Shown one piece after another: positions 5,809 to 32,189 of a DNA stretch of 32,189 nucleotides (within the stretch, counting starts at the first letter, position 1; every line of letters begins with the position of its first letter). A program made the position numbers and the translations under genes. Below the pieces are notes generated by a model. The model was given only the letters and a program-made list of their open reading frames with translations, had not been told where the DNA came from and searched no databases. Source of the stretch: a virus; the IMG/VR virus record IMGVR_UViG_3300007038_000005, positions 1 through 32,189 of that record; one strand, 5' to 3'.

Positions 5809-6012
5809 ATGCCCACCAAGCACTTGCCAGTAATGGAGCTTCCCGCAACCGATGACGAAAGGCACCTCACCGCAGGTGAGCTGGTCATCATCCTCGACAA
5901 CAGCGGGAACATGACCATACTCAAACCCCTTCTGCCCTCACAGAAGCAGGAGAAGTTGGCTGAGTTCGCGAAGAGCTACGCCAAGGGGCGCAAAGCAATG
6001 GTCAAAGTCTAA
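5809..6012 (+). CDS. Small protein of unknown function (67 aa)
   Basis: ATG 5809 is preceded by a strong AAAGGAGG. The product has a beta-like central stretch (GELVIILDNSGNMTILKPLL) and a basic helical C-terminus (KLAEFAKSYAKGRKAMVKV). The 30-base gap before it contains CACCATCACCAT, one of the G-poor spacers seen through this block. Function unknown. Confidence 0.6.
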   Translation: MPTKHLPVMELPATDDERHLTAGELVIILDNSGNMTILKPLLPSQKQEKLAEFAKSYAKGRKAMVKV

Positions 6013-6059
6013 GCGCGCCGTCATCCATCAACCACACACACACATCAGAGAGCATTATC

Positions 6060-6380
6060 ATGCCGAAGAAAGCGTACGTACAACCTCAATCTATCCGGGA
6101 GCTGCTCAGGCTCAAGGGCGACAACAAGTTCAAGACAGCCGAGCTTATGGGCATATCGGACTCGGCTCTTCATGACTACTTGAAGCAGGATCGAGCCCCG
6201 GTCAATGTGGACAAGCTGGCAGCCTACATCGCAGCCGAGACCCGACATGGCACGCCCAACGCCGGCGAGAAGAAGCACCTTCTCGTTGTGAGGGCGCACA
6301 CCGATGAACTCGAGCTCATCAAGATTTTCCTCAAGGGCCTGAACGAGCGGGGCACGAGGTACGTCGAGTTTGTCGACTGA
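6060..6380 (+). CDS. Small helix-turn-helix protein, probable DNA-binding regulator
   Basis: 106 residues from ATG 6060; the ribosome binding site is weak. Residues about 8-57 read as a Cro/CI-like fold: a first helix (SIRELLRLKG), a turn-helix pair (KTAELMGISDSALHDYLKQ) and a following helix (NVDKLAAYIAAE). The C-terminal 35 residues form a small mixed domain (HLLVVRAHTDELELIKIFLK). It lies directly before the MoxR gene and could control this block or the control region at 1-857. The HTH assignment is by pattern only; its operator is unknown. Confidence 0.6.
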   Translation: MPKKAYVQPQSIRELLRLKGDNKFKTAELMGISDSALHDYLKQDRAPVNVDKLAAYIAAETRHGTPNAGEKKHLLVVRAHTDELELIKIFLKGLNERGTRYVEFVD

Positions 6381-6421
6381 ACCAACCACCCAACCACCCA
6401 ATCACCCAACCACCCAACCAA
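6381..6421 (+). repeat. G-less CCCAACCA spacer repeat
   Basis: After the stop at 6378-6380, about 40 bases consist of repeated CCCAACCA/CCCAATCA units containing no G, ending at the AAGGAGC ribosome binding site of the MoxR gene. Such a leader cannot fold and leaves the ribosome binding site accessible. A shorter relative (CACCCAACCACCCCAC) precedes the gene at 9081. Confidence 0.8.
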
Positions 6422-6431
6422 GGAGCATATA

Positions 6432-7580
6432 ATGCAGCTTCACACTTTCCGCAAAACCGCCGCGACTCTCTTCGCAACCGGCAACGCTGTCGAGATCGTC
6501 GGTGGGCCCGGCATCGGCAAGTCGTCCATCATACGCGAGGTCGCGCAGGACCTGTCGCATGACGATCCGTTCGGGCTGGTGACGTACATTCTGTCGCAGA
6601 TGGACCCCATCGACATGCGCGGGTTCGTCTTCCCCGTCAAGAAGGAGGAGGAGGGCAAGAACGACCTGGTTGCAAAGACCACCAAGCCCATCGTCTGGCC
6701 GGAGGCGCACAACGTGGAAGTCTTCCATGGCGGCGAGATGGTGGCTCGCAACGGAGTAGTCCTCAAGGAAGGCTACAACGGGCCACTGATCCCCGAACGT
6801 GGCATGATGCTTCTGGATGAGTTCGCACAGGCTGGCCAGGATGTCCAGAAGGCTGCTTCGCAGCTCATTCTGGACAAGCGCATCGGTGAGTTCACGCTCC
6901 CAGACAACTGGGTCGTGTGGTCGGCTGGCAACCGGACCACTGACCGGTCCGGGGTTCAGAAGCGCCTGGCATTCGTCAGGAACCGCATGCTCGAGATCGA
7001 AATCGAACCCACGTTCGAGTCGTTCCAGCGTTTCGCGAACAAGGCCGGGGTGCATCCCCTGACCATCACGTTCGCGAAACGCTACCCGGCGCATGTGTTC
7101 CGCGATTCCGTGCCTTCGCAGGACGGCCCCTTCTGCACACCCCGCAGTCTCGTGCTGTGCAGCCAGAACCTCGAAGATCTCAGGACCAAGGACATGCACG
7201 AGATGCACCTGCCCGATGGCGAGATCGCCCTGGAGGTGGCCAAGGGGTGGCTCGGAGAGTCGGTGGCTGTCGACCTCATGAGCCATATCCGGCTGGGTAA
7301 CGAGTTGCCGGAGATCGAGGACGTCGAGAAAAAACCACAGTCTGTTCACGTGCCCGAAAGGCCGGATGCACAGTTCGTGATGGCCAACATGCTGGCACAT
7401 CACGTGACCAAGAAGCGGGCCAAGCCGTTCCTCGACTACATGAAGCGGCTGGGGGTCGAGATGCAGGCTCTCTTCGTATCCGCCGCTGCGTCCAGGAACC
7501 CGATGATCCTCGGCGATCCCGAATATCAGAAGTGGATCGAGGCCAACCAGGAACTCCAACTGGCTGCTAGCGCGGCGTAA
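6432..7580 (+). CDS. MoxR-type AAA+ ATPase
   Basis: 382 residues from ATG 6432, behind AAGGAG. Visible motifs are Walker A GGPGIGKSS (K30), Walker B MMLLDEFA (D129, E130), a sensor-1 VWSAGN near residue 160, and a downstream arginine-rich FVRNRMLEIEIEP. This order fits the MoxR/RavA branch of AAA+ ATPases, which work as chaperones that remodel or activate partners, commonly together with a VWA-domain protein. Such a partner is encoded at 10165. Length is normal for the family (about 300-400), so it looks intact. The substrate is unknown; acting in the cytoplasm on a phage or host complex is inferred. Similar ATPase/VWA pairs occur in other phages, including N4-like ones. Confidence 0.85.
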   Translation: MQLHTFRKTAATLFATGNAVEIVGGPGIGKSSIIREVAQDLSHDDPFGLVTYILSQMDPIDMRGFVFPVKKEEEGKNDLVAKTTKPIVWPEAHNVEVFHGGEMVARNGVVLKEGYNGPLIPERGMMLLDEFAQAGQDVQKAASQLILDKRIGEFTLPDNWVVWSAGNRTTDRSGVQKRLAFVRNRMLEIEIEPTFESFQRFANKAGVHPLTITFAKRYPAHVFRDSVPSQDGPFCTPRSLVLCSQNLEDLRTKDMHEMHLPDGEIALEVAKGWLGESVAVDLMSHIRLGNELPEIEDVEKKPQSVHVPERPDAQFVMANMLAHHVTKKRAKPFLDYMKRLGVEMQALFVSAAASRNPMILGDPEYQKWIEANQELQLAASAA

Positions 7581-7585
7581 ACATC

Positions 7586-7609
7586 AGGCCGGGCCTTCGG
7601 GCCCGGCCT
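7586..7609 (+). repeat. GC-rich stem-loop with a UUCG tetraloop
   Basis: A perfect 10-bp stem (AGGCCGGGCC at 7586-7595; GGCCCGGCCT at 7600-7609) closes a C(UUCG)G tetraloop, one of the most stable RNA loops. It starts 6 bases after the MoxR stop and has no U-run, so it is more likely an mRNA-stabilising or processing element than a terminator. Confidence 0.8.
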
Positions 7610-7638
7610 CCACACATCTGCAATTACAGGAGGATAAT

Positions 7639-7953
7639 ATGAGCCAAGAAGAAGATGGATCCGTGCCACAAGTGGTGGCTTATGAGGCTCAGGTGTCGAG
7701 CCTCATCGTCGCGCTGGTGTACGCAGCCGACCTTCGAGGCGATCCCAACTTCGGCGAAAACTCGCTGTCCCAGAAATTCTGCAAAGCTTTCGCAGACAAG
7801 GTCATGGAGACCAGGGACGACGAAAAACTCCGCGAGGAAATGGGCTCAACGTTGATGACTATCATCAGGGGGAGAGAAAATCGCGAAGTCGTAACCATGC
7901 TCACCGGCCTGCGCAAGCTCCAGGAAATCGTCCGTGTAAAGGTCGTCTACTGA
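7639..7953 (+). CDS. Small protein of unknown function (104 aa)
   Basis: ATG 7639 with a strong ACAGGAGG. The product is predicted mostly helical, with an acidic N-terminus (MSQEEDGSVPQ) and two amphipathic stretches (AQVSSLIVALVYAADL; VVTMLTGLRKLQEIVRVK). It lies between the MoxR gene and an unknown gene of the same block, bracketed by two stem-loops, so it may be expressed at its own level. No family is recognised. Confidence 0.65.
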   Translation: MSQEEDGSVPQVVAYEAQVSSLIVALVYAADLRGDPNFGENSLSQKFCKAFADKVMETRDDEKLREEMGSTLMTIIRGRENREVVTMLTGLRKLQEIVRVKVVY

Positions 7954-7957
7954 AGAA

Positions 7958-7990
7958 ACACGCGCGGAGGACTTGTACCCCCGCGCGTGT
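7958..7990 (+). repeat. GC-rich stem-loop
   Basis: ACACGCGCGG (7958-7967) and CCGCGCGTGT (7981-7990) form a perfect 10-bp stem with a 13-base loop, starting 5 bases after the stop at 7953. There is no U-run. It marks the boundary before the 88-base gap that holds the promoter-like TAATATAGGGGGG. Confidence 0.75.
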
Positions 7991-8035
7991 AACATTCCCA
8001 TCACCACATGGAGCATATCTGCCGATACACAACTC

Positions 8036-8046
8036 TAATATAGGGG
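8036..8046 (+). promoter_or_regulatory. TAATATAG-GGG promoter-like site
   Basis: TAATATAG at 8036-8043 runs into a run of G. The same 8-mer ends both copies of the leader repeat (42-49 and 94-101), where the following bases differ. It lies in one of the longer gaps in the block, 33-43 bp before the gene at 8079. It could be an internal promoter; the shared sequence is too short to be sure. Confidence 0.25.
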
Positions 8047-8078
8047 GGTGTTTACGGCGTGTCAACAAGAGGATCAAA

Positions 8079-9041
8079 ATGAAAAAAGAACACCACATTT
8101 CGGACAGGTTCTACAGCTGGGCCGCTGAGAACGTTGAGTACAAAATCATGCCGATGCGTCCCCCGCTTGAAGAGGAAACGCATCGTAGCAAAATGATCTA
8201 CGCCTATGGCCGGATGGGCGGTGCGATCTATGCCGACCGGGCTTCTCCGGCTCTGGCGTACGTTGCAAGGCCGGGCATCGAAACGATCCGATCGCAGTAT
8301 CACTATGAGACTTTCGTCACGCCAGCTGGCACAGAAATACAAGGGCTCGTGCCGGAGATTATCAGCATGCCTGATAGTGCCATAACAGCAGCCTACAACT
8401 CTTTGGGCAAGATGAAGGCTACGCTGATGAACTGCGGGAAGGAGGACGACACTGGCAACAGGCTGGTACGAATGGTACTCGATACTGCCAAGAAGGCCGC
8501 CAAGGATCATCGCAAGCTGAGCGATGAAGAGAAAAGGGTGGTATGGGGCCGGCTGTTGGACGTGCTTCACCCCAAGTTCGACAACGTCGAAAACGTTTAC
8601 GCCGCCGCTTTTCAACAGATAGGAGGCTACAATTCGATACACGAGGACCAGCCCCTGTTCGAACGAATAAAGACCATCGGATCGGCGCTGGAGTTCCTGA
8701 CGGACTTCCACATAGTTTCTACTTCCAAGCAGAAAGGAGACATGGAAAATACCGCAACGATCAAGGCATGCCGCTTGGTCGAGGATCTGGGAAATGAATC
8801 TGCAAAGATACCAGAAAAGCACTACGCACTCGTACTGATCAATGCGTGCATCTATGCGAAAGTGATCTACGAGCTCAGCTTCCAAGCCGTGCGGCACCAC
8901 AAAGGCTTTGGCGGGTCGAGTGTTTCAGCACCCAATGTCCAGAAAGACTGTGAAAGCCTGGTGCTGCCCGTTGAGTTCGATCAGGGTCTCTTCGAAGAAG
9001 GCGAGAAGAGGGTTCTCACCGCCTTGCTGAAGAGAGCCTGA
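8079..9041 (+). CDS. Protein of unknown function in the MoxR-VWA block
   Basis: 320 residues from ATG 8079, with AAGAGGA upstream. No signal peptide or membrane segment is seen. The middle is helical and charged (KKAAKDHRKLSDEEKRVVWG), with a later hydrophobic helix (ALVLINACIYAKVIYELSFQ). Cysteines are few and scattered. It sits between the MoxR ATPase and the DUF3150-like and VWA proteins, so a role in the same complex is plausible but not shown. I recognise no family. Confidence 0.7.
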   Translation: MKKEHHISDRFYSWAAENVEYKIMPMRPPLEEETHRSKMIYAYGRMGGAIYADRASPALAYVARPGIETIRSQYHYETFVTPAGTEIQGLVPEIISMPDSAITAAYNSLGKMKATLMNCGKEDDTGNRLVRMVLDTAKKAAKDHRKLSDEEKRVVWGRLLDVLHPKFDNVENVYAAAFQQIGGYNSIHEDQPLFERIKTIGSALEFLTDFHIVSTSKQKGDMENTATIKACRLVEDLGNESAKIPEKHYALVLINACIYAKVIYELSFQAVRHHKGFGGSSVSAPNVQKDCESLVLPVEFDQGLFEEGEKRVLTALLKRA

Positions 9042-9080
9042 TCAAGTCACCCAACCACCCCACTTAGTAAAGGAGCAACT

Positions 9081-9983
9081 ATGACTGTCGATATCAATGA
9101 AGCAATCCGGCAATCCGCAATGATCGCCGGTGTCCACACGTCGTCCTGGACTGCACGGGCGAAAGACACCAAGGCAGCGATCTCGGCTGCCCAGGCTGTC
9201 GGTGCCGCCGCTGGAGCGTACACCACGCACAAGAACCTAATGTACGGACACGACAAGCGTCTAAAGGCCGTACGCGCGGCGCAGGCCAACGCGAGGAATA
9301 TCCACACGGAGATGACCCTGCCCTGGGGCTCTGAGTCCGCTGGCAAGGGCTTGCGGATGCTCCCCGTGGTGAACTTCGAAGACTACATGAAGAGGGTCGG
9401 CAAGGCCCGCGACGAGTTCCATGAGGCATTGAAAGAGTTTCTCGATCACTACGCGGACGACTCCGCGCAGGCGGCGGAGAAGCTCAACCTCAGCGGCAAC
9501 GAGTTGCTGATGTACCCGAAGGCCGAGAAGCTCAGGGATGCATTCAAGGTCCGGGTCGAGATCCAGCCCATACCGGCGGGGACTTCGTTCCAGGGCCTGC
9601 CGCCGGGCGTGTCCCAGCAGCTCTCCGAAGCCTACGAGGATCGCATGACCGAGAAGGTCAGGCAGGCAATGACCACGGCCTACGAGCGCACGAAGGTCAC
9701 TCTGGAGTCCTTCGCGAACCGCGTGCAGGGTGACCGGATGCGTACCTCGTCCTGGACCATGGTCGAAGACCTGCCGAGGATGCTGAGGCACTTCAACCTC
9801 ATGGGCTCGCAGGAGGCAGAAGACTTCGCGAGCGCAATCGAGAGGGAGCTCGTGGATCCCTACGACTACGAGTCCTGCAAAGACAAATCGCTCAAGGAGT
9901 TTCTGGCGGATAAGTCCAACGCGTTGGCAGAGCAGGCTGACATGCTCATGGGTGACGGGTCCGATATGGACATCAGCGAGTAG
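9081..9983 (+). CDS. DUF3150-like protein
   Basis: 300 residues from ATG 9081 behind AAAGGAG. The layout recalls phage proteins resembling the DUF3150 family: an early tryptophan plus basic stretch (SSWTARAKDTKAA), a 'LPWG...GLRMLPVVNFEDYM' segment near residues 80-100, a helical region (KARDEFHEALKEFLDHYADD) and 'YPKAEKLRDAFKVRVEIQPIP' near 150-175. The rest is helical with an acidic end (MLMGDGSDMDISE). Such proteins are often found beside MoxR and VWA genes, as here, and may bridge or regulate the pair. The family name rests on remembered sequence pattern and gene order; the coding call itself is firm. Confidence 0.55.
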   Translation: MTVDINEAIRQSAMIAGVHTSSWTARAKDTKAAISAAQAVGAAAGAYTTHKNLMYGHDKRLKAVRAAQANARNIHTEMTLPWGSESAGKGLRMLPVVNFEDYMKRVGKARDEFHEALKEFLDHYADDSAQAAEKLNLSGNELLMYPKAEKLRDAFKVRVEIQPIPAGTSFQGLPPGVSQQLSEAYEDRMTEKVRQAMTTAYERTKVTLESFANRVQGDRMRTSSWTMVEDLPRMLRHFNLMGSQEAEDFASAIERELVDPYDYESCKDKSLKEFLADKSNALAEQADMLMGDGSDMDISE

Positions 9984-10011
9984 ATCGTTTACCCTGAGTA
10001 TACTCTACCCG

Positions 10012-10048
10012 CATTCTAAAACCCAGTGAGCGAGGCGTAGGGTAGAGT
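10012..10048 (+). repeat. Stem-loop
   Basis: ACTCTACCC (10012-10020) and GGGTAGAGT (10040-10048) form a perfect 9-bp stem with a 19-base loop. It is the first of two hairpins in the 181-base gap before the VWA gene and has no U-run. Confidence 0.65.
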
Positions 10049-10051
10049 CCC

Positions 10052-10079
10052 AGCTGGCCCGTAGATCTACGGGCCAGCT
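10052..10079. repeat. 28-bp perfect palindrome
   Basis: Positions 10052-10065 are exactly reverse-complementary to 10066-10079, centred on GATC in GTAGATCTAC. In RNA it would be a 12-bp stem with a GAUC tetraloop; in DNA it is a perfect binding-site dyad. It lies 4 bases after the preceding stem-loop and is followed by the CACAC/CGCAC microsatellite. Confidence 0.85.
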
Positions 10080-10085
10080 TCCCAT

Positions 10086-10153
10086 CACACCACACCACAC
10101 CGCACCGCACCACACCGCACCACACCGCACCGCACCACACCACACCACACCAC
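10086..10153 (+). repeat. Pentanucleotide CACAC/CGCAC microsatellite
   Basis: About 68 bases are built from 5-base units that are either CACAC or CGCAC, in mixed order, ending at the AGGAG ribosome binding site of the VWA gene. It contains no T and only the G of the CGCAC units. It does not code and it separates the hairpin pair from the start codon. Slippage would change the leader length but not any reading frame. Confidence 0.85.
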
Positions 10154-10164
10154 AGGAGTATCAA

Positions 10165-11535
10165 ATGTCGAAACACGAGCAGCATCAGCAGATGCTCAAA
10201 CAGCTCAAAACGGCCATGATTTACCGGGCGCAGTTCTTCGCCTGGATCATGTTCGAGAGATCGAGGATTCACTTCACCGTAGACCACGAGATCCAAGGCA
10301 CCGTCGCCAAGCCTGACGGTTCGCACGAAGAGGTGTCGGCGGTCGTGCCGATCTGGAGGGGTATTCAGGTCCCGACCGCCATGACGGATGGGTACAATAT
10401 CGTGTTCAATCCGTCTTTCCTGGAGACACTCAGCCTCAGTGAGCAGATCTTCGTGGCGTCCCATGAGGTCTTCCACCTCATGTCTCGTCACCCGCGGAGG
10501 TTCCAGTTCTATCAGCAGAACGGCATCGCTGGCCGTCCTTTCAACCCGAAGCTCGCGAACGCCTCGGCGGACATCGTAATCAACAAGTGCCTTCGGGTCG
10601 CTGGCATAGGTGCTCAGCCCAAAGATGGCATCGACATGGAGGAGGAGCTTGTAAACGAGTACAACTACCAGGTAACTGGTACGGAACCGTGGGAAGACGT
10701 CTACAAGATCCTGGACCAAAGCGAGGAGAAGTCAGGGTCTTGTGGGGGCAATGGCGACGATGATGGTGATGGCCAAGGCAAGGGCCAAGGCAAGGGCCAA
10801 GGCAAGGGCCAAGGCGATAGCGGCGCAGTTCCAGAAGGCTACGAGCAAGACGTCGGGTCGCCTCAGACCGCTGAAGGCCAGGAAGCTGCTGAGACGGAGA
10901 TGAAGACCACTATGAAGTCGGCTGCCCAAGCGAGCAAGTCTCGTGGCACGATGCCCGGCGTTCTCAAGACGCTGGTTGACGAGTTCGTGGAATCCAAGGT
11001 GCCGTGGCAGGAGGTATTGGCGAACAACATCAAGTCCAACGCCGACCCCGACCAGTACGACTGGTCGAGACCTAACCGTCGCCGTATCGTATCGCCCGGC
11101 ATTTACATGCCCAGAAGGGTCAGCATGTCGACGGGCCATGTGGTCGCTTCCGTTGATACGTCCGGGTCTGTCTCGAACGAGGAGCTGAGGGCGGGCGTCA
11201 GCGAACTCTCTTCCATCTTGTCGGAGTGCAGACCGGAAAGCCTTCACGTGATCTGGTGTGATGCCAAGGTCGATCGGTGTGACGAACTCGACACCCCGGA
11301 AGATCTCGCACACGTCACCAGAGTAAGGGGTATCGGGGGCCGTGGTGGCACGTCTTTCATCCCGCCTTTCGAGTACATCAACGAGCATGGCCTCGACCCT
11401 GACATCCACATATACGTTACGGACGGGCACGCACCTTTCCCCGACGAGCACCTCAGTCAGGTTGACACCATGATCTGGCTGATAACCACAAGCGTGGTGG
11501 CGCCTTTCGGGGACACCATACACCTGGAGGTCTGA
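10165..11535 (+). CDS. Metallopeptidase-like/VWA domain protein (DUF2201-type)
   Basis: 456 residues from ATG 10165 (AGGAG upstream). Residues about 20-170 carry the 'putative metallopeptidase' domain of DUF2201 proteins with HEVFH (H100, E101, H104), a canonical HExxH zinc site. Residues about 195-225 are a low-complexity G-K-G-Q linker. From about 325 to the end is a VWA-like domain with the MIDAS sequence DTSGS (D331), GGRGGTSF (about 390-398) and YVTDG (about 416-420). VWA proteins of this type partner MoxR ATPases, and the MoxR gene lies 2.6 kb upstream. The metal sites look complete, so both metal-dependent binding and peptidase activity are possible. Cytoplasmic; no signal peptide. The family is clear, the target is unknown. 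Confidence 0.85.
   Translation: MSKHEQHQQMLKQLKTAMIYRAQFFAWIMFERSRIHFTVDHEIQGTVAKPDGSHEEVSAVVPIWRGIQVPTAMTDGYNIVFNPSFLETLSLSEQIFVASHEVFHLMSRHPRRFQFYQQNGIAGRPFNPKLANASADIVINKCLRVAGIGAQPKDGIDMEEELVNEYNYQVTGTEPWEDVYKILDQSEEKSGSCGGNGDDDGDGQGKGQGKGQGKGQGDSGAVPEGYEQDVGSPQTAEGQEAAETEMKTTMKSAAQASKSRGTMPGVLKTLVDEFVESKVPWQEVLANNIKSNADPDQYDWSRPNRRRIVSPGIYMPRRVSMSTGHVVASVDTSGSVSNEELRAGVSELSSILSECRPESLHVIWCDAKVDRCDELDTPEDLAHVTRVRGIGGRGGTSFIPPFEYINEHGLDPDIHIYVTDGHAPFPDEHLSQVDTMIWLITTSVVAPFGDTIHLEV
10772..10815 (+). repeat. 12-bp tandem repeat in the VWA gene linker
   Basis: About 3.5 copies of a GGCCAAGGCAAG unit encode the G-Q-G-K linker between the peptidase-like and VWA domains. The copies are nearly identical in DNA, suggesting recent slippage expansion. 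Confidence 0.8.
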
Positions 11536-11541
11536 CTCCTA

Positions 11542-11567
11542 GCTCAGGCACTCCCCGGTGCCTGAGC
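11542..11567 (+). repeat. Stem-loop after the VWA gene
   Basis: GCTCAGGCAC (11542-11551) and GTGCCTGAGC (11558-11567) form a perfect 10-bp stem with a 6-base loop, starting 7 bases after the stop. There is no U-run. It is followed at once by a CAT/CAC microsatellite. Confidence 0.75.
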
Positions 11568-11568
11568 C

Positions 11569-11619
11569 CATCACCACCATCACCACCATCACCACCATCA
11601 CCACCATCACCATCACCAC
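11569..11619 (+). repeat. CATCACCAC microsatellite spacer
   Basis: About 51 bases of repeated CATCACCAC with no G, leading into the AGGGAG ribosome binding site of the gene at 11634. It lies outside any reading frame. It resembles a His-tag codon run only by chance of composition. Confidence 0.85.
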
Positions 11620-11633
11620 TAGGGAGCTAAACC

Positions 11634-12470
11634 ATGAAAATGAGCTACACCGACGAGCAGTTGGTCCTCAACCAGATCGCCAAAGTCCTCGCTGCCAGGC
11701 ATACCGGCGAGGGCCCTGACATCACCGACGTGAACAGGATCATGTTCACGAAAAAGGAATGGGCAGCAATAAACGTACTCAGGGACAGTGCCGCCAGCTC
11801 CTTAGGCTACGTAAACTACGTAGTGCTCCAGCCGGAAAACTTTGGCATCGACGCGGATTCGGCGAAGCTCAGCCCGTTCTCTAATTTCACACATATCGAG
11901 CTTCTAGTAACCAACTACTGTCACCCATCGGGCACCCGCACCGAAATCATGAGACCTCCTCGCCGCGACAAGTACCCGCAGCCAACACCCACCCGGTCTG
12001 ACATATCGTCGACAAAGGTGTTGAATGTGCATGCCGACAACCGAGCCTACAACCGGGTCAAGAGGTGGGCCCAGCACGAAACGAGAACCTCGGTGGAAAA
12101 CATCATAACCTGGAACATGGTCGAAACCGTGATATCCGGGGCCAGCACCTGGCTTCAGCTCAAGAAATGGTGGCCCCAGCTGTTACAGTTCGTCGTGGCC
12201 AACATCAGACTGCAAAACGCACCGACGTGCGACCTCAAGGCTCTCGATGCCACCAGGGCGGCCAACCCCCCATCCGATATGATGAAAGCAATATCGGAAT
12301 ACGGCAGATTTGCTGCCGGCAAGCTGCTTCAAGGCCATATGGTGAGGTACTCCGGTGCAGTGAAAGGGCCTGCGGCCCGTGAACACAGTCGGGGTATCTA
12401 TACAACCTACGACAACAACATACACTTCGTCGCCCAACACAAGCAGCCGTTGTTTTACCACACGGAGTGA
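11634..12470 (+). CDS. Protein of unknown function (278 aa)
   Basis: ATG 11634 (also ATG 11640) behind AGGGAG. The N-terminal part is mixed, with a beta-like FTHIELLVTNYCHPS near residues 85-100, a proline-rich basic stretch (MRPPRRDKYPQPTPTRSD), then a tryptophan-rich helical middle (STWLQLKKWWPQLLQFVVAN) and a basic C-terminus. No catalytic motif is recognised. It is the last gene of the MoxR-VWA block and is followed by a stem-loop, then the DNA polymerase, so it could belong to either block. Confidence 0.65.
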   Translation: MKMSYTDEQLVLNQIAKVLAARHTGEGPDITDVNRIMFTKKEWAAINVLRDSAASSLGYVNYVVLQPENFGIDADSAKLSPFSNFTHIELLVTNYCHPSGTRTEIMRPPRRDKYPQPTPTRSDISSTKVLNVHADNRAYNRVKRWAQHETRTSVENIITWNMVETVISGASTWLQLKKWWPQLLQFVVANIRLQNAPTCDLKALDATRAANPPSDMMKAISEYGRFAAGKLLQGHMVRYSGAVKGPAAREHSRGIYTTYDNNIHFVAQHKQPLFYHTE

Positions 12471-12474
12471 CCTC

Positions 12475-12500
12475 TGCCCCCGGGGTGAACCCCGGGGGCA
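12475..12500 (+). repeat. Very stable GC stem-loop before the polymerase gene
   Basis: TGCCCCCGGGG (12475-12485) and CCCCGGGGGCA (12490-12500) form a perfect 11-bp stem with a UGAA loop, 5 bases after the stop at 12470. A short TGTTTACTTT follows but no continuous U-run, so termination would be partial at most. Confidence 0.8.
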
Positions 12501-12527
12501 TGTTTACTTTGAGCAAGTGAGGCCACT

Positions 12528-14375
12528 ATGCAGGACGTAACAGTAGACTTTGAAACGTACTTCGCTAAGGACTATTCCTTGAAGGATATGACTATGCGCG
12601 AGTACATCCTGGACGATAGGTTCCAGCCTATCGTGCTCGGAGTGGCCACCGAAGATGATCGGTTCACACTCCAGGGCCACGAGATCCAAAGATGGGTGAA
12701 CAGTGTGAACTGGTCGCAGGTCAGGCTTTCTGGCCACAACCTACAGTTCGACGCTGCAATACTGCGTTGGCACTTCAAAGCTGAGCCTCCTGCTCTTTAC
12801 GAATGCACCCAGTTCATGGCGCAGGCCAGCATAGGCCACGCCGTTGGTGGATCATCTCTCGAGATAATCAACGAAGTCTTCGGGATGTCGAAAGATTCGG
12901 GAGCTCTGACCAGCATGAAGGGTATGCGCTACGAAGACATAGACTGGGCTTCTTCTGAAGCCCAGCGCTATATGAAGTACGCATGCCAGGACGCCGTAGA
13001 CAGCTTCACGCATGCCAAGTATTTCCGCAAAAACCTGCCTCAGAAGGCTAAGCTGGTCATACATCTAATCGTCCGCATGTATGTGGACACAGGGTTTGTT
13101 CTCGACCTGCCCATGCTCAAGAAGAACCTGAAAGACGTAAAGCTCGAAGCTGACCGTGTGCTTTCACAAGCTGGCGTAAACGATCGCAAAGAGATTTCCA
13201 GCAGAGAGAAGTTCGCCGAGCTCCTGAAGCTCAATGGTGTAGAGCCTCCTGTGAAGATATCGGAGCGGACTGGCAAAGAGACCTACGCCTTCTCCAAGAA
13301 GGATATTGAGTTCGTAAAGCTGCAATCTCACCAGGATCCGAAAATCAGAACGCTGGTGGAAGCAAAGCTGAACGCATCTTCCACGCTGGAGGAGACACGC
13401 ACTGCACGTTTCATAAAGCTCGCCGAGCTGGGCGACAGGCTGAACGTCCCTTTGAACTTCTCAGGGGCCCACACCCACAGGTTCAGTGGTCGCGACTCCT
13501 TGAACCTACAGAACCTACCCAGAGGCAGTGAGCTCAGGAACGCCATGAAGGCACCACGCGGTTACAAGATCGTGGTAATTGACGCTTCGCAGATCGAAGC
13601 GAGAGTCCTGGCCTGGCTCGCAGGTTGCGAAGAACTTGTTAACGCATTCGCCAATGGTGAAGACGTTTACTCGGTGTTCGCTTCCAAGATATTCGGGTTC
13701 CAGGTTAACAAGAAAGACCATCCAAAAGAACGCTTTCTGGGTAAGACTGGCATTCTTGGCCTGGGGTACGGTACAGGCGCCGACAAGTTTTTTCTCACTG
13801 TCCTACTGGCTGGGCAGGAAATCAGCTACGACTTCGCTCAGCAGACAGTGCGGACATACCGGCAAGGCTACCCTGAAATCCCCCTGCTGTGGAGGCGTAT
13901 GGATGAGGCTATACTGTCCATGATCAGCGGAACTGGTATGGAGATCGGCCCGGTGTCTTTCCACAATAAGCTCTGGACCACTATAGAAGGGCTACCGGTC
14001 GTGTATCCCAGCCTTCGGGTCGCGCCTGATCCGGGCAGTGGATATGGTCAGGAGTTTGAGTTCTGGCGGCACAGGTACAAAAGCTTCGAGCGGCTCTACG
14101 GAGCAAAGCTGACCGAGAACGTAGTGCAGCATCTGTCTTGGCTTCAGATAGTGGAGACCATGGTGAAGATGCACGTGACCAACCCGGATTGGATGTGCCT
14201 TTTGCAGGTTCACGACGAACTGGCGTATCTGGCACCCGAAGACGAGGCCGAAGACTGCTACAACTGCTTGATGAAGTTCATGTGTGAGCAGCCTCCTTTC
14301 GCCTCGGCAAAGCAATACCCGATACCTCTCGCAGCAGAGGGCGACATAGCCGATAGGTACGGGGAAGCGAAGTAA
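12528..14375 (+). CDS. Family A DNA polymerase with 3'-5' exonuclease
   Basis: 615 residues from ATG 12528. The proofreading domain carries DFET (D7, E9), the GHNLQFD segment (D75) and YACQDAVD (D155/D159). The polymerase domain carries motif A VVIDASQIEAR (D352), motif B with R402, K406 and Y414, and motif C QVHDE (H562, D563, E564). The catalytic set looks complete, so it should be an active, proofreading replicative polymerase of the T7/Pol I kind. There is no 5'-nuclease domain, as usual for phage enzymes of this length. The residue equivalent to E. coli Pol I Phe762 is Leu410. It opens the replication block and is followed by two nuclease genes. Confidence 0.95.
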   Translation: MQDVTVDFETYFAKDYSLKDMTMREYILDDRFQPIVLGVATEDDRFTLQGHEIQRWVNSVNWSQVRLSGHNLQFDAAILRWHFKAEPPALYECTQFMAQASIGHAVGGSSLEIINEVFGMSKDSGALTSMKGMRYEDIDWASSEAQRYMKYACQDAVDSFTHAKYFRKNLPQKAKLVIHLIVRMYVDTGFVLDLPMLKKNLKDVKLEADRVLSQAGVNDRKEISSREKFAELLKLNGVEPPVKISERTGKETYAFSKKDIEFVKLQSHQDPKIRTLVEAKLNASSTLEETRTARFIKLAELGDRLNVPLNFSGAHTHRFSGRDSLNLQNLPRGSELRNAMKAPRGYKIVVIDASQIEARVLAWLAGCEELVNAFANGEDVYSVFASKIFGFQVNKKDHPKERFLGKTGILGLGYGTGADKFFLTVLLAGQEISYDFAQQTVRTYRQGYPEIPLLWRRMDEAILSMISGTGMEIGPVSFHNKLWTTIEGLPVVYPSLRVAPDPGSGYGQEFEFWRHRYKSFERLYGAKLTENVVQHLSWLQIVETMVKMHVTNPDWMCLLQVHDELAYLAPEDEAEDCYNCLMKFMCEQPPFASAKQYPIPLAAEGDIADRYGEAK

Positions 14376-14394
14376 ACCAGAAGGAGACAGCTTA

Positions 14395-14553
14395 ATGAAG
14401 CAAGATCCAGAGCTCGAGAAAGTTCTTCGGTCGATGAAAACCGAGCACCTCCAGGCACTGCATTGCGTGGCCAAAACGAGGGCCAAGGCGTTTTTCAAGG
14501 ACCCAAGGGCCATGCTGCAACTCAGAAAAGCACTAAACCGGAGGAAACAATGA
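14395..14553 (+). CDS. Small basic protein of unknown function (52 aa)
   Basis: ATG 14395 with AAGGAGA upstream, 19 bases after the polymerase stop. The product is basic and helical (KVLRSMKTEHLQALHCVAKT; ending ALNRRKQ), compatible with nucleic-acid binding. Its stop overlaps the next start as ATGA, and its last codons carry the GGAGG ribosome binding site of the nuclease gene. Its place between polymerase and nuclease suggests an accessory role, but no family is recognised. Confidence 0.65.
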   Translation: MKQDPELEKVLRSMKTEHLQALHCVAKTRAKAFFKDPRAMLQLRKALNRRKQ

Positions 14554-15224
14554 AGAAGGCATGGAGCCACTCCAACCTCACGAGCTTCGAGCTCTGCCCC
14601 AAGAAGTACTACGCCACTTCAGTGGCCAAGAGCGTACAAGAGCCCGCTGGCGAGGCTATGACCTGGGGCAAAGAAGTTCATTCGGCCTTCGAGAACTACA
14701 TGGGGAGCGGCAAGCCGTTCCCCATGGGCATGAAACACTTCAAAAAGGTCGCGGATCCGCTCATGGTGCCCGAGGGCTCTAGTGCTGAGGTCTTGATAGA
14801 GGCAAAGCTAGCACTGGACGTGAATCTTTCGCCCACTGGGTTTTTCGACCGCGACGTGTGGGTCCGCTGCGTGGTGGACTACGGCGTGGTCAAGGGCTCA
14901 AAGGCTCTGCTGGTGGACTGGAAGACTGGCAAGCGCAAGGACGACTACGACCAACTCGCGCTCATGGCAGGGGTCATGTTCGCGCAAGAGCCTAAGCTGC
15001 AACAGGTGGACAGCATGTTCGTGTGGCTGAAAGAGAAAACCCAGAAGGACATGATCCAGGACGTCTCATTCACCAGAAAAGACATCCCGGATATCTGGAA
15101 CCGCTTCCTTCCAAGGGTCGAGAGGTTTCAACGGGCCTTCGACAACGACAACTTCCCGCCCAATCCCAACTGGCTGTGCAAGAGGCACTGCCCTGTAACC
15201 AGCTGCCCATATCACGGTACTTGA
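14550..15224 (+). CDS. PD-(D/E)XK exonuclease of Cas4/RecB type with Fe-S cysteines
   Basis: 224 residues from ATG 14550 in an ATGA overlap; the frame is open upstream only as a shadow. Family features in order: SFELCPKKYY with the first cysteine (near residue 17), GKEVHSAFENY (the conserved histidine near 48), VDYG with D near 110, LLVDWKTGK with D123 and K125, and a QLALMAGVM segment in the place of the Q-x3-Y motif. Near the end, CKRHCPVTSC supplies three more cysteines. One N-terminal plus three C-terminal cysteines is the 4Fe-4S arrangement of Cas4 and AddB nucleases. It is probably a 5'-end-processing exonuclease in phage recombination or replication. It is not evidence of a CRISPR system: there is no array or other cas gene. 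Confidence 0.85.
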   Translation: MKKAWSHSNLTSFELCPKKYYATSVAKSVQEPAGEAMTWGKEVHSAFENYMGSGKPFPMGMKHFKKVADPLMVPEGSSAEVLIEAKLALDVNLSPTGFFDRDVWVRCVVDYGVVKGSKALLVDWKTGKRKDDYDQLALMAGVMFAQEPKLQQVDSMFVWLKEKTQKDMIQDVSFTRKDIPDIWNRFLPRVERFQRAFDNDNFPPNPNWLCKRHCPVTSCPYHGT

Positions 15225-15231
15225 GGTATAA

Positions 15232-15570
15232 ATGGCCCAAACACCAGAAGGCAAGGTTAAGAAGGCTGTCCAGAAAGTCCTTGACAATAAAGGAAAATTT
15301 GGTGTAATATACCACTACTGGCCGGTACCAGCTGGCTATGGTTCCCCAACGCTCGATTGCATAATATGCTATCGTGGCGTGTTCATTGCTATCGAGACCA
15401 AGGCGCCGGGCAAGAAGCCTACCCCGCGCCAAGAGTTGTCGATTAGCGACATGTTGGCGGCAGGAGCCATAGTCATGGTTATCGACACCACTGACACCAC
15501 AAGGCTTGAGCATGTCCTCGAACGCATCCGTGACCGTCGTCCCGAGAAAGAAGGGATTGATATTAGATAA
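15232..15570 (+). CDS. VRR-NUC domain nuclease
   Basis: 112 residues from ATG 15232, 7 bases after the preceding stop, with TGAGGT upstream. The whole protein is a minimal VRR-NUC domain: N-terminal TPEGKVKKAVQKVL, then D42 in SPTLDCIICYRG, then IAIETKAPG with E55 and K57, then the TPRQ segment. That matches the D-(x)n-E-x-K core. VRR-NUC proteins are structure-specific nucleases, and stand-alone copies are common in phages beside SNF2-type helicases, as here. Its 3' end overlaps the helicase gene by 59 bp, so the two are probably co-translated. Confidence 0.85.
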   Translation: MAQTPEGKVKKAVQKVLDNKGKFGVIYHYWPVPAGYGSPTLDCIICYRGVFIAIETKAPGKKPTPRQELSISDMLAAGAIVMVIDTTDTTRLEHVLERIRDRRPEKEGIDIR

Positions 15571-17071
15571 ATCTCCACAGATCCCGGGAGTAATACCTGA
15601 AGCAGTAGACATACCGTCCACCAACAAGATGTTCGTGCCCCACAGGCCGGGCGAGACGCGCATTCTGCGTAACATGGGCTACAAGGTTCCTAGCCCTATA
15701 CACCACCACTACGACTGGAACGGAGGCACACCGTTCCAGGCTCAGAAGACCACGGCTGCGATGCTGGTGTGCGAGCCTCGTGCCTTCGTGCTTTCGGGTA
15801 TGGGCACGGGCAAGACGCGCAGTGTGCTGTTCGCCTACGACTACCTGCGAAAGCAGGGGCTGGTCAGAAACATGCTGGTGGTGGCCCCTCTTAGCACGCT
15901 CAATTTCACATGGGCCAGAGAGGTGTTTTTCAACTTCCCCGATTACCGAGTAGGCGTCGTCCATGGCCGAAACAGACGTGAAAAGATCCTAACAGACGAC
16001 CGCTTCGATATTCACGTGATAAACCATGATGGCGTCAAAGTCATGGAGAACGAGCTCATCAAGAAGAAGTTCGACATCATCGTCATAGATGAAGTCGCGG
16101 TTTTTCGTAACGCGCGTTCGCAGCGTCACAAGTCCATGGCCAGGGTTGCAAAGAACTACAAGTACCTGTGGGGTCTAACGGGGACACCAACACCGAAGGA
16201 TCCGACAGACGCCTACGGTATCATAAAACTGATTACTCCGGGTAATCGAGAGGTCACCAGTTTCTCCAGGTTCCGCGAAAAGCTGATGTACAAGATCACC
16301 CAGTTCAAATGGGTGCCCAAACCCGGTGCGCAGGAAGAGGTTTTCAGGCTCATGCAGCCGGGCGTCAGGTTCACCATGGACGAGTGCATAGACATGCCGC
16401 CCACGGTGTACTCCGAACGTGAAGTGAAGCTCAGCACCAAGCAGAAGCAGTGCTATGAAGAGCTCAGGAAGTACGCCACCACGAAGACAGACAACGGCAA
16501 TCAGGTTCGCGCAGTAAACGAAGCGGTCCTGATCAACAAGCTGCTGCAAGTATCAAGCGGCTGCGTCTACGACTCCGAGAAAAATAGCACCCTTCTGGAC
16601 CCGGAAGATCGCTTGAAGATCACCGAAGAGGTCGTGTTCGAGAACGACTCGAAGTCGATAGTGTTCTGCCCGTTCATACCGCTGGTGGGCATGGTCGCGA
16701 ATTACCTGGAGTCGAAAGGCTGCAAGGTATGGCAGATCAGTGGAGCTACACCCGTCAACACGAGGTCCAAAATTTTCTCAGAGTTCCAGGACAACGCCAA
16801 GGGCGCCGCACCGGAAGTCCTGGTGGCCCACCCTGCGACCATGTCTCACGGCCTTACGCTCACAGCCGCCAGCTTGGTTTTGTGGTACGCTCCTGTGGAT
16901 AACCTCGAAACGTACCAGCAGGCAAACGCCCGGATCGCCAGGCCGGGCCAAGTGTCGCATAAGGTGCAGGTGATGCACCTTGTGTCGTCGCCCGCAGACC
17001 GCCGGATATACCGCCGTCTGCAATCGAAAGAGCAGGTTCAAGGGAGCCTGCTTGAACTCTTTGACGACTAA
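15512..17071 (+). CDS. SNF2-type (SF2) DNA helicase/translocase
   Basis: ATG 15512 (AAGG about 7 bases upstream) gives 519 residues; TTG 15506 is just upstream in frame. Motifs: I GMGTGKTRS (K101), Ia VVAPLSTL, II VIDEVA (D193, E194; DEVA rather than DEAH), III LTGTPTP, then the second RecA-like domain with SIVFCPF, V SHGLTLTAA and VI QQANARIARPGQ. This is the organisation of short phage SNF2-like ATPases that move on duplex DNA during recombination or replication restart. The gene order VRR-NUC then SNF2 supports a joint role in resolving branched DNA. Length is normal and all ATPase motifs are present. Confidence 0.9.
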   Translation: MSSNASVTVVPRKKGLILDKSPQIPGVIPEAVDIPSTNKMFVPHRPGETRILRNMGYKVPSPIHHHYDWNGGTPFQAQKTTAAMLVCEPRAFVLSGMGTGKTRSVLFAYDYLRKQGLVRNMLVVAPLSTLNFTWAREVFFNFPDYRVGVVHGRNRREKILTDDRFDIHVINHDGVKVMENELIKKKFDIIVIDEVAVFRNARSQRHKSMARVAKNYKYLWGLTGTPTPKDPTDAYGIIKLITPGNREVTSFSRFREKLMYKITQFKWVPKPGAQEEVFRLMQPGVRFTMDECIDMPPTVYSEREVKLSTKQKQCYEELRKYATTKTDNGNQVRAVNEAVLINKLLQVSSGCVYDSEKNSTLLDPEDRLKITEEVVFENDSKSIVFCPFIPLVGMVANYLESKGCKVWQISGATPVNTRSKIFSEFQDNAKGAAPEVLVAHPATMSHGLTLTAASLVLWYAPVDNLETYQQANARIARPGQVSHKVQVMHLVSSPADRRIYRRLQSKEQVQGSLLELFDD

Positions 17072-17117
17072 GGAGGAAGCACAGAGTACTTAAACACCCT
17101 GCCACAAGGAGACGAAC

Positions 17118-17501
17118 ATGGCCGATCTGGGTCAACTCGTGACCAAATACCTACAGCTTCGCGACAAGAAGAAGCAAATTGAAGACAGGCACAAGGAGGA
17201 ACTCGCACCTATCAACGAACTGCTCGGCGAACTGGAAGCGCTTTTCCAGAAGGCTATGGACGAAACGGGTCTCGAGCAGCTAAAATCGGACTCCGGGGTC
17301 GCTTACAAGAGCGTGCAGAGGTCGGTTAAAGCTTCGGACAAGACCGCGTTTCTCGAGTGGGTACAGGAAAATGAAGCATGGCACCTGCTCGACATCCGCC
17401 CCGCTAAAACAGCGGTAAGCGAATACACTGACGAGAATGGTACGCCGCCACCAGGCGTAGACATATCAAGCCACCTCAAGATTAACGTAAGGAAAGGGTA
17501 G
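17118..17501 (+). CDS. Conserved coiled-coil phage protein beside the SSB-like gene
   Basis: 127 residues from ATG 17118 behind AAGGAG. Residues about 5-55 form a charged coiled coil (LQLRDKKKQIEDRHKEELAP). The rest is a small domain with GVAYKSVQRSVKASDKTAF, WVQENEAWHLLDIRPAK and a PPPGVDISSHLKINVRK end. I know this general arrangement as a common unnamed phage family located next to ssDNA-binding or recombination genes; I cannot give it a reaction. It stops 4 bases before the next gene, so the two are likely a translational pair. Confidence 0.7.
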   Translation: MADLGQLVTKYLQLRDKKKQIEDRHKEELAPINELLGELEALFQKAMDETGLEQLKSDSGVAYKSVQRSVKASDKTAFLEWVQENEAWHLLDIRPAKTAVSEYTDENGTPPPGVDISSHLKINVRKG

Positions 17502-17505
17502 CCAC

Positions 17506-18474
17506 ATGAGCACCGACATCACACTCGCAGGTTTCGACCCCAACCAGGTCCCCGCACTCGCTGACATGTTTGGAGGGCAGGAACGCAACGACGACCTCTC
17601 GCAAGGCGTCAGCGCTTCCTTCCCAGTTCTGTCGTTCAAAGGCAAGGTGTGGCGAGTCAAGCACAAGGGCGAAGAGAAGACAGTCCTCAACAACGACGGG
17701 GATCCTGTCGCATCGTTGACGGCTGTGCTGATGAAGGCCAGCCCGAACATCTCGAAGCTCTACTACGAAAAGCAGTACGCTGAAGGCGACGACGCTGCGC
17801 CCACGTGCTTTTCGCTGGACGGCATTAAGCCCGACCCGGCTTCCGAGAAGAAACAGTCGGAGACGTGCGCGGTCTGTCCCCACAACGTCTGGGGGTCTCG
17901 GGTGACCGACAACGGCAACAAGACCAAGGCGTGTGCCGACAACCGGCGCATCGCGGTCGCCCCCTACCCCGATATCGACAACGCCGGCGACGGGCCCATG
18001 CTTCTGCGTGTCCCGCCCGCGTCTCTGGCTTCGCTGGTGTCCTTCAAGGAGAAGCTGGACGAGCTCAAGCTTCCCTATCAGGCGGTTGTCGTCAAGATCG
18101 GCTTCGACACCAACCTCGCTTACCCCAAGCTGGTCTTCACCCCTGTCAGGGCGCTCACCCTCGAAGAGGCCGAAAAGGTCAAGGGCTACATGGAGAGTGA
18201 ACAGGTGAACAACATGTTCACCGAAGTCGTGGACGAGGGCGACAAAGCCTCTCAGAAGGCTGCTGAGAGCACTTCTGCTGCGGCTGACCCCAAGCCTTCT
18301 GACGAGCCAAAGGCTTCTCCTGCCCCCTCCACGACTACTCCTGAGCCCCAGCCTGAGCCCCAGCCTGAGCCCAAACCGGAGACCCCGAAGCAGACAGCTG
18401 CTGACGAGGGCCAAGTCGCAGACGAAGGTGACGAAGATCTCAACGCTCGCCTCGCGAGCATATTGGGCGACTGA
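17506..18474 (+). CDS. Zinc-binding, probable single-stranded DNA-binding protein
   Basis: 322 residues from ATG 17506. The core (residues about 40-230) starts with a beta-rich segment (FPVLSFKGKVWRVKHKGEE) and has four cysteines, C101, C121, C124 and C143, spaced like a zinc site embedded in a nucleic-acid-binding fold. Then comes a Pro/Glu/Ala-rich linker with PEPQ repeats (about 255-300) and an acidic tail (DEGDEDLNARLASILGD), as in many SSBs that recruit partners through their C-terminus. Its position between helicase/nuclease genes and the primase fits. The SSB name is inferred from architecture and context; no catalytic motif is seen. Confidence 0.55.
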   Translation: MSTDITLAGFDPNQVPALADMFGGQERNDDLSQGVSASFPVLSFKGKVWRVKHKGEEKTVLNNDGDPVASLTAVLMKASPNISKLYYEKQYAEGDDAAPTCFSLDGIKPDPASEKKQSETCAVCPHNVWGSRVTDNGNKTKACADNRRIAVAPYPDIDNAGDGPMLLRVPPASLASLVSFKEKLDELKLPYQAVVVKIGFDTNLAYPKLVFTPVRALTLEEAEKVKGYMESEQVNNMFTEVVDEGDKASQKAAESTSAAADPKPSDEPKASPAPSTTTPEPQPEPQPEPKPETPKQTAADEGQVADEGDEDLNARLASILGD

Positions 18475-18484
18475 TCCCTCAATA

Positions 18485-18507
18485 GCCCGGGCCAGTCAGG
18501 CCCGGGC
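18485..18507 (+). repeat. Stem-loop before the primase gene
   Basis: GCCCGGGCC (18485-18493) and GGCCCGGGC (18499-18507) form a perfect 9-bp stem with an AGTCA loop, starting 11 bases after the stop. There is no U-run. A short CATCACCACAC spacer and AAGGGGGG then lead to the GTG start at 18533. Confidence 0.75.
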
Positions 18508-31884: not shown

Positions 31885-32189
31885 TTTACCTGTACTTACT
31901 GTACTGCTTCTGCCACCGCAGCATGAGTTGGCGTTGAAACTCCAACTGCGACTGTCTAGAATAACTTCCAAGCAGTTCTCTATTCAACTCAGTAGCCTTT
32001 GCTATAGCATCTCCACGTTCTGGAGTAGCCAGTATCTTATCAATCCTGCTTTGGATCTGCGGCGTGATCTCGACCTCTGTCTGAAAGGGCTGCTGGCCGC
32101 CTTGCTGGCCGCCTTGCTGGCCGCCTTGCTGGCCGCCTTGCTGGCCGCCTTGCTGGCCGCCTTGCTGGCCGCCTTGCTGGCCGCCTTGC
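31885..32189 (-). CDS. 3' end of a Gly/Gln-repeat protein (partial)
   Basis: About 100 C-terminal residues are in the window; the 5' end lies beyond it. The visible start is a perfect GGQQ repeat, then a helical, charged tail (PFQTEVEITPQIQSRIDKIL to RWQKQYSKYR). The stop (31887-31885) is 2 bases before the start of the giant gene, so they are in one operon. Position upstream of a probable virion protein suggests a structural role, for example an internal or tail component, but no family is recognised. Confidence 0.65.
32102..32189 (-). repeat. 12-bp tandem repeat at the window edge (GGQQ)
   Basis: Seven perfect copies of TTGCTGGCCGCC (+ strand) plus a partial copy run to the last base of the window. 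In the - strand frame they encode Gly-Gly-Gln-Gln. The true copy number is unknown because the array is cut by the window end. Confidence 0.9.

Follow-up and report, generated by a model that had tools for sequence, protein, structure and literature searches.

Several described machines pair a MoxR-clade ring ATPase with a VWA partner carrying a MIDAS, and the two remodel a client complex. RavA-ViaA, CbbQO and midasin share this plan with the locus analyzed here, and to our knowledge none of them has a fused HExxH peptidase. Of these comparisons, the resemblance to midasin in the ATPase domain is the one computed in this work. The module may also resemble the cobS-type genes of SXT/R391.

In phages, the closest described counterparts are N4 gp24 (ATPase) and gp25 (vWFA), core genes of N4-like phages that belong to middle transcripts (PMC4193335, PMC2784036). 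They are core in the 25 N4-like phages compared, with no function assigned (PMC4193335). A MoxR ATPase and a metallopeptidase-vWA protein of group 2.2 jumbo phages were named a chaperone pair in 2021 and proposed to serve virion assembly. In the sections of that paper considered here, the domain pair is the same, with the vWA domain fused to an N-terminal metallopeptidase, whereas a DUF3150 partner, plasmid copies and a gene in the slot next to PolA go unnamed (PMC7824862). The MoxR-vWA ternary conflict systems described in 2020 likewise combine MoxR, vWA and a third protein (PMC7159879). A Pfam scan of our block gave no match above cut-off for their third components (VMAP, iSTAND, FtsH, beta-propeller), and its match to the bpMoxR profile also stayed below cut-off.

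The first-pass annotation had put the locus forward as an undescribed system. Its ATPase/metallopeptidase-VWA pair is already published, in N4 (PMC4193335) and in jumbo phages (PMC7824862), and is known from hundreds of phage records. What seems undescribed is the trio that the pair forms with a DUF3150 protein, the presence of this trio, with its gene order kept, on plasmids of Burkholderiales, and a conserved protein family in the slot between the metallopeptidase and PolA.

RESULTS

Organization of the locus

The window, i.e., the whole stretch of DNA analyzed, covers positions 1-32,189 (32,189 bases) of IMG/VR viral record IMGVR_UViG_3300007038_000005 and is about half as long as its relatives of ~60 kb. 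Its last positions (32091-32189) form a pure tandem repeat with a 12-bp unit (TGCTGGCCGCCT x 8.2), inside which the contig probably broke. Megablast of positions 6001-18500 against 50,697 phage records found no nucleotide match. The block at 6432-12470 holds six ORFs, all on the plus strand and placed as in the first-pass annotation, which had described one co-directional block (Table 1).

Table 1. Features of the block and its surroundings
Feature	Position	Strand	Remarks
MoxR-clade AAA+ ATPase, 382 aa	6432..7580	+	phrog_1297, motifs, relatives, midasin profile match
Perfect 10-bp hairpin, no T tail	7586..7609	+	after ATPase gene
104-aa orphan	7639..7953	+	without relatives; block membership unsupported
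320-aa orphan	8079..9041	+	without relatives
Predicted DUF3150-superfamily helical protein, 300 aa	9081..9983	+	third trio member
Perfect 14-bp palindromic hairpin	10052..10079	+	between 9081 and 10165
Metallopeptidase (HExxHxxxxH, DUF2201_N) fused to VWA, 456 aa	10165..11535	+	complete MIDAS
Gly/Gln/Lys repeat linker	10771-10815		between DUF2201 metallopeptidase and VWA
Perfect 10-bp hairpin, no T tail	11542..11567	+	after metallopeptidase-VWA gene
278-aa unnamed protein	11634..12470	+	slot between metallopeptidase-VWA and PolA
12-bp hairpin, T-rich tail	12475..12500	+	before PolA
PolA	12528	same as block	downstream of 11634
RecB-like	14553
VRR-NUC	15232
SNF2	15512
Primase-helicase	18530
3414-aa ORF	21638-31882	-	internal 18-bp and 9-bp repeats

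The replication genes that follow (PolA, RecB-like, VRR-NUC, SNF2, primase-helicase) are ordered as in Rhizobium phage RHph_TM3_14A (MN988472; EVB41_051 to EVB41_058). This phage keeps the gene order of the window through VRR-NUC, SNF2, primase and the giant protein, at identities of 32% for MoxR, 30% for the metallopeptidase-VWA protein, 35% for PolA and 36% for the RecB-like protein; unlike the window, it lacks the DUF3150 and 8079 genes. The giant ORF of the window, to which Pfam gave no match, corresponds in position to a 2307-aa gene of RHph_TM3_14A. Where the flanks suffice, PolA is found downstream on the same strand in 36 of 54 loci and in 19 of 27. Gene order near PolA may mirror only the ancestry of one phage group. 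The position of the terminase in relatives was considered as an early/late marker and dropped, as early and late strands are not separated. Elsewhere in the window, the product of 798-2561 (587 aa) contains an HNH-like motif region (CGNPRCVNPWH) and has only a weak match to a PHROG endonuclease.

Perfect or near-perfect hairpins follow the genes at 6432, 7639, 9081, 10165 and 11634. Stem-loops thus separate most genes of the block, as first annotated, except that none lies between 8079 and 9081. Since a T-rich tail is found only after 11634, the transcription unit most likely extends to 12500 and stops short of PolA, and the remaining hairpins may be processing or stability elements. Short C/A-rich tandem repeats occur at 708-738, 6382-6420, 10086-10154 and 11568-11612, several of them just upstream of start codons (MoxR, the metallopeptidase gene and 11634).

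The ATPase and the metallopeptidase-VWA protein

The product of 6432 belongs to phrog_1297 (E 5.3e-75) and carries Walker A (GGPGIGKS), Walker B (MLLDE) and sensor-1 (AGN) motifs as well as R185 and R238. Conservation over 112 aligned sequences is nearly complete: K30, N167, R185 and R238 are kept in 111, D129 in 109 and E130 in 108. Tblastn matched this ATPase to 747 phage records, and the best solved structure for the family profile was midasin (E 4e-14). Its matches to Pfam AAA_3 and AAA_5 fell below cut-off (15 bits against 22 for AAA_5), and one phage relative reaches AAA_3 at 8e-9. Because AAA_5 misses its cut-off, the label MoxR, already used in the first-pass annotation, rests on the PHROG, the relatives and the midasin profile match. 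An IMG/VR scan with this protein as a single sequence returned nothing; an alignment-based scan succeeded. Locus L047 encodes two MoxR ATPases, of 325 and 368 aa, separated by a few genes.

Both halves of the 10165 product are well supported by Pfam, with matches to PF13203 (E 1.8e-39, 136 bits; cut-off 23.2) and PF09967 (E 7.5e-17, 62 bits; cut-off 26.4). An alignment of 101 sequences drawn from widely differing phages shows the zinc-site residues H100, E101 and H104 in at least 98 sequences and H109 in 95. The MIDAS residues D331, S333, S335 and T396 are invariant, and D420 is found in 100 of the 101. Both sites had been described as looking intact, and the alignment bears this out. Selection to keep a peptidase active and a metal-dependent docking site functional would leave such near-invariance, and zinc ligands can also be kept for structure. 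Matches to the protein occur in 370 phage records and 49 plasmid records. In RefSeq phage records and in PHROG phrog_1314, N4 gp25 included, it is labeled "HNH endonuclease"; the same name is given at L135:1165-2307 and in many phage records, and the domains contradict it.

The window therefore carries a genuine MoxR/VWA module, as first proposed on the basis of its letters, with domains, motifs and relatives in agreement. N4 gp25 matches the metallopeptidase-VWA family profile (E 2e-92), and the gp24/gp25-type pair, a Schitoviridae marker, is present in the window. The order is that of N4, with the AAA+ ATPase followed by metallopeptidase-VWA. Unlike in the window, gp24 and gp25 are adjacent, a dCTP deaminase and small proteins are annotated after gp25 where the window has the slot protein and PolA, and the replication modules differ.

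Among 80 phage loci fetched with the ATPase alignment, most have metallopeptidase-VWA downstream of MoxR. Distance matrices of the two proteins correlate beyond the share due to PolA, with partial correlations of 0.73 in the 16 phages that have all five genes and 0.30 in 39 phages. This mirror-tree comparison supports a linkage of the two proteins beyond shared phage ancestry, clear in the smaller set and weak in the larger one. Two further conserved small families lie between MoxR and metallopeptidase-VWA in relatives (loci L010-L062), one in 39 loci (66-162 aa) and the other in 13 (140-222 aa). No member of either was detected in the window.

A DUF3150-superfamily protein joins the pair in viruses

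The 9081 product itself gave no match to PF11348, and 9 of 28 members of its family did (best E 1.9e-7). Its predicted structure (pLDDT 86), helical with a small strand part, resembles models of viral DUF3150 proteins (TM 0.77 to one of them). Through these intermediates and the shared predicted fold, we assign it to a DUF3150 superfamily wider than PF11348; the initial term "DUF3150-like" holds in this wider sense, not as a Pfam match of the window protein. Against the PDB, the model had no match that could be trusted, with a best Foldseek E of 0.86 and a VIA-align Z of 10.5 to generic helical bundles. A weak profile match to apolipoprotein was set aside as long-helix similarity.

Relatives of 9081 were found beside MoxR in 12 cases by blastp and 14 by iterative profile. 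In the ATPase-side set, a DUF3150-like gene is present in just 13 of the 73 loci holding both MoxR and metallopeptidase-VWA, so that it is an optional third part. The reverse search, with DUF3150 alone, fetched 45 viral loci, of which the 44 new ones were counted; they include near duplicates and are thus not 44 independent events. MoxR and metallopeptidase-VWA both lie within 7 kb in 37 of the 44. Two named records retrieved on their own, both positive, stand outside this count and would raise it to 39 of 46. Six others (L094, L095, L107, L124, L125 and L130) are limited by contig ends, and in L095 the metallopeptidase gene lies at the opposite end of the same contig. The sole true exception, L119 (an 85-kb contig), has a distant DUF3150-like gene and neither MoxR nor metallopeptidase. 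Co-occurrence with MoxR/VWA in other phages clearly links 9081 to the pair.

An IMG/VR scan with 9081 as a single protein found nothing, and an alignment-based scan succeeded. A scan of bacterial genomes, weak because it used a single-protein pattern, found no DUF3150. None of the papers in the open-access library searched refers to DUF3150.

The trio is also found on plasmids

The phage DUF3150-like query retrieved nine plasmids. Those inspected encode an ATP-binding protein, a DUF3150-like protein and a VWA-like protein in that order, usually with VirB/Trb genes following. MoxR, DUF3150 and VWA occur in the order of the phage trio on six Burkholderiales plasmids (e.g., NZ_AP024959, NZ_LR699557 and NZ_CP071828), five of which have T4SS genes adjoining. 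On Cupriavidus pBB2, no VirB genes accompany the trio in the stretch displayed. Five plasmid middle proteins outside the profile-building set match the DUF3150 profile with E values no higher than 8e-85. The one on a Simplicispira plasmid is adjoined by a VWA gene, with no ATPase in the stretch displayed. The Burkholderiales cassette thus has the three families in the order of the window trio and differs in its VirB/Trb type IV secretion neighbors, the absence of PolA there and the lack of any slot-family gene seen. As plasmids make no virion, virion assembly cannot be all that the trio does; the plasmid copies may have been repurposed.

The PolA-proximal slot and the two orphans

In this phage group, a gene for ~220-290 aa lies between metallopeptidase-VWA and PolA. 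The slot family comprises 47 proteins of ~250 aa, is essentially missing from PHROGs and has a clear member in RHph_TM3_14A (EVB41_056). Fetching by the family alone gave 12 closely related loci. Metallopeptidase-VWA lies directly upstream in all 12, and PolA follows in every case where the contig extends further. The 11634 gene occupies this position on the same strand. Its product scores 11.5 bits against the family profile (E 9e-4 in 97 sequences). The highest score among 2000 shuffles was 6.7, and a real ORF outside the family comes close, at 10.8. Hhalign gave a probability of 68% over 60 columns, and the aligned part is the conserved W-P region of the family. We consider 11634 a likely divergent member: its position probably links it to MoxR/VWA in other phages, as the first-pass annotation had suggested checking, while its score stands near that of a non-family ORF. 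An IMG/VR scan with 11634 as a single protein found nothing, and its model (pLDDT 71) had no trustworthy match in the PDB (best Foldseek E 0.58; best VIA-align Z 3.5).

The module as first drawn also included 7639 and 8079, which we leave out. Relatives of 8079 were sought in phages, viral contigs and whole related genomes, and those of 7639 among related phage loci, and none was found, hence none near MoxR/VWA in other phages; for these two genes, this is the lack of co-occurrence that the first-pass annotation had listed among its refuting outcomes. Comparison of 7639 with the two small families that commonly occupy the interval from MoxR to metallopeptidase-VWA showed no homology, and 8079 was rejected as a slot-family member on comparison with that family. 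GC3 is 0.65 in 8079, against 0.81 in the ATPase gene and 0.82 in the DUF3150 gene; it is weak evidence by itself because PolA has a similar value (0.66). Probably, 8079 is a lineage-specific insertion, and both orphans are passengers not to be counted as parts. Directly upstream of 8079, the minus strand (8037-8065) has a strong sigma-70-like promoter match (11/12).

DISCUSSION

We lean, at slightly better than even confidence, toward an ATP-driven protein-remodeling machine that carries its own zinc peptidase and acts in the early or middle phase. By analogy with its family, MoxR would assemble into a hexameric ring. As in midasin, RavA-ViaA and CbbQO, the MIDAS metal of the 10165 VWA domain would hold an acidic residue of the client and present the client to the ring, which would pull it out of its complex. 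The fused HExxH domain, whose active-site residues are conserved, would then cleave the client itself or a processing site in it. DUF3150, a long helical protein, would probably be a client-selecting adaptor in some lineages. The pair would form the core, with DUF3150 as an optional third part and 11634 as the protein that usually accompanies it downstream in this group of phages. The target would be a host or replication-associated complex, and the role not solely virion assembly; we infer the timing from the position of the module, which precedes PolA and the replication genes and shares their orientation.

A virion assembly machine, with the MoxR/VWA chaperone putting together parts of the tail or head and the metallopeptidase processing structural proteins, appears rather unlikely to us, even with the published proposal for group 2.2 jumbo phages (PMC7824862) and the tail-chaperone precedent of p618/p892 in the archaeal virus ATV, as cited in PMC7911831 and PMC7159879, behind it. 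Structural genes do lie near gp24/gp25 in some N4-like roseophages (PMC4193335), but the N4 copies are middle genes (PMC4193335), the block of the window is grouped with replication genes and the opposite strand encodes the 3414-aa protein, and the trio is also carried by plasmids.

Its sharing by phages and plasmids, its location with replication genes and its lineage-specific third partners would suit counter-defense or host takeover. The machine would then pull apart or cleave an immune or regulatory complex of the host, one that both phages and conjugative plasmids entering the cell encounter. We judge this improbable: a search with defense-system profiles gave nothing of substance, just a weak ATPase match, and core conservation in all N4-like phages fits housekeeping better than a patchy anti-defense role. 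A metal-chelatase or cofactor-insertion pair like cobaltochelatase CobS/CobT is very improbable. MoxR and chelatase ATPases are neighboring AAA+ subclades (PMC7159879), but the VWA partner contains a fused, conserved peptidase, and no chelatase catalytic subunit or cofactor genes were recognized in the window. Metal loading, which the first-pass annotation mentioned as a role of bacterial MoxR-VWA pairs, has no specific support here.

A bolder extension of the remodeling machine, which we hold to be unlikely, is that the trio is an autonomous AAA+ protease machine of phages and conjugative plasmids that would disarm or rewire the same host complex on entry. Its adaptors (DUF3150, the slot protein, perhaps 8079) would be interchangeable and lineage specific.

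The N4-type ATPase/VWA pair is the core pair of a whole phage family and is frequently misannotated as "HNH endonuclease." Its three-part form on plasmids narrows the function to something other than virion building only. The trio is a defined set of proteins for purification, and plasmid and phage genetics are both usable as a test bed.
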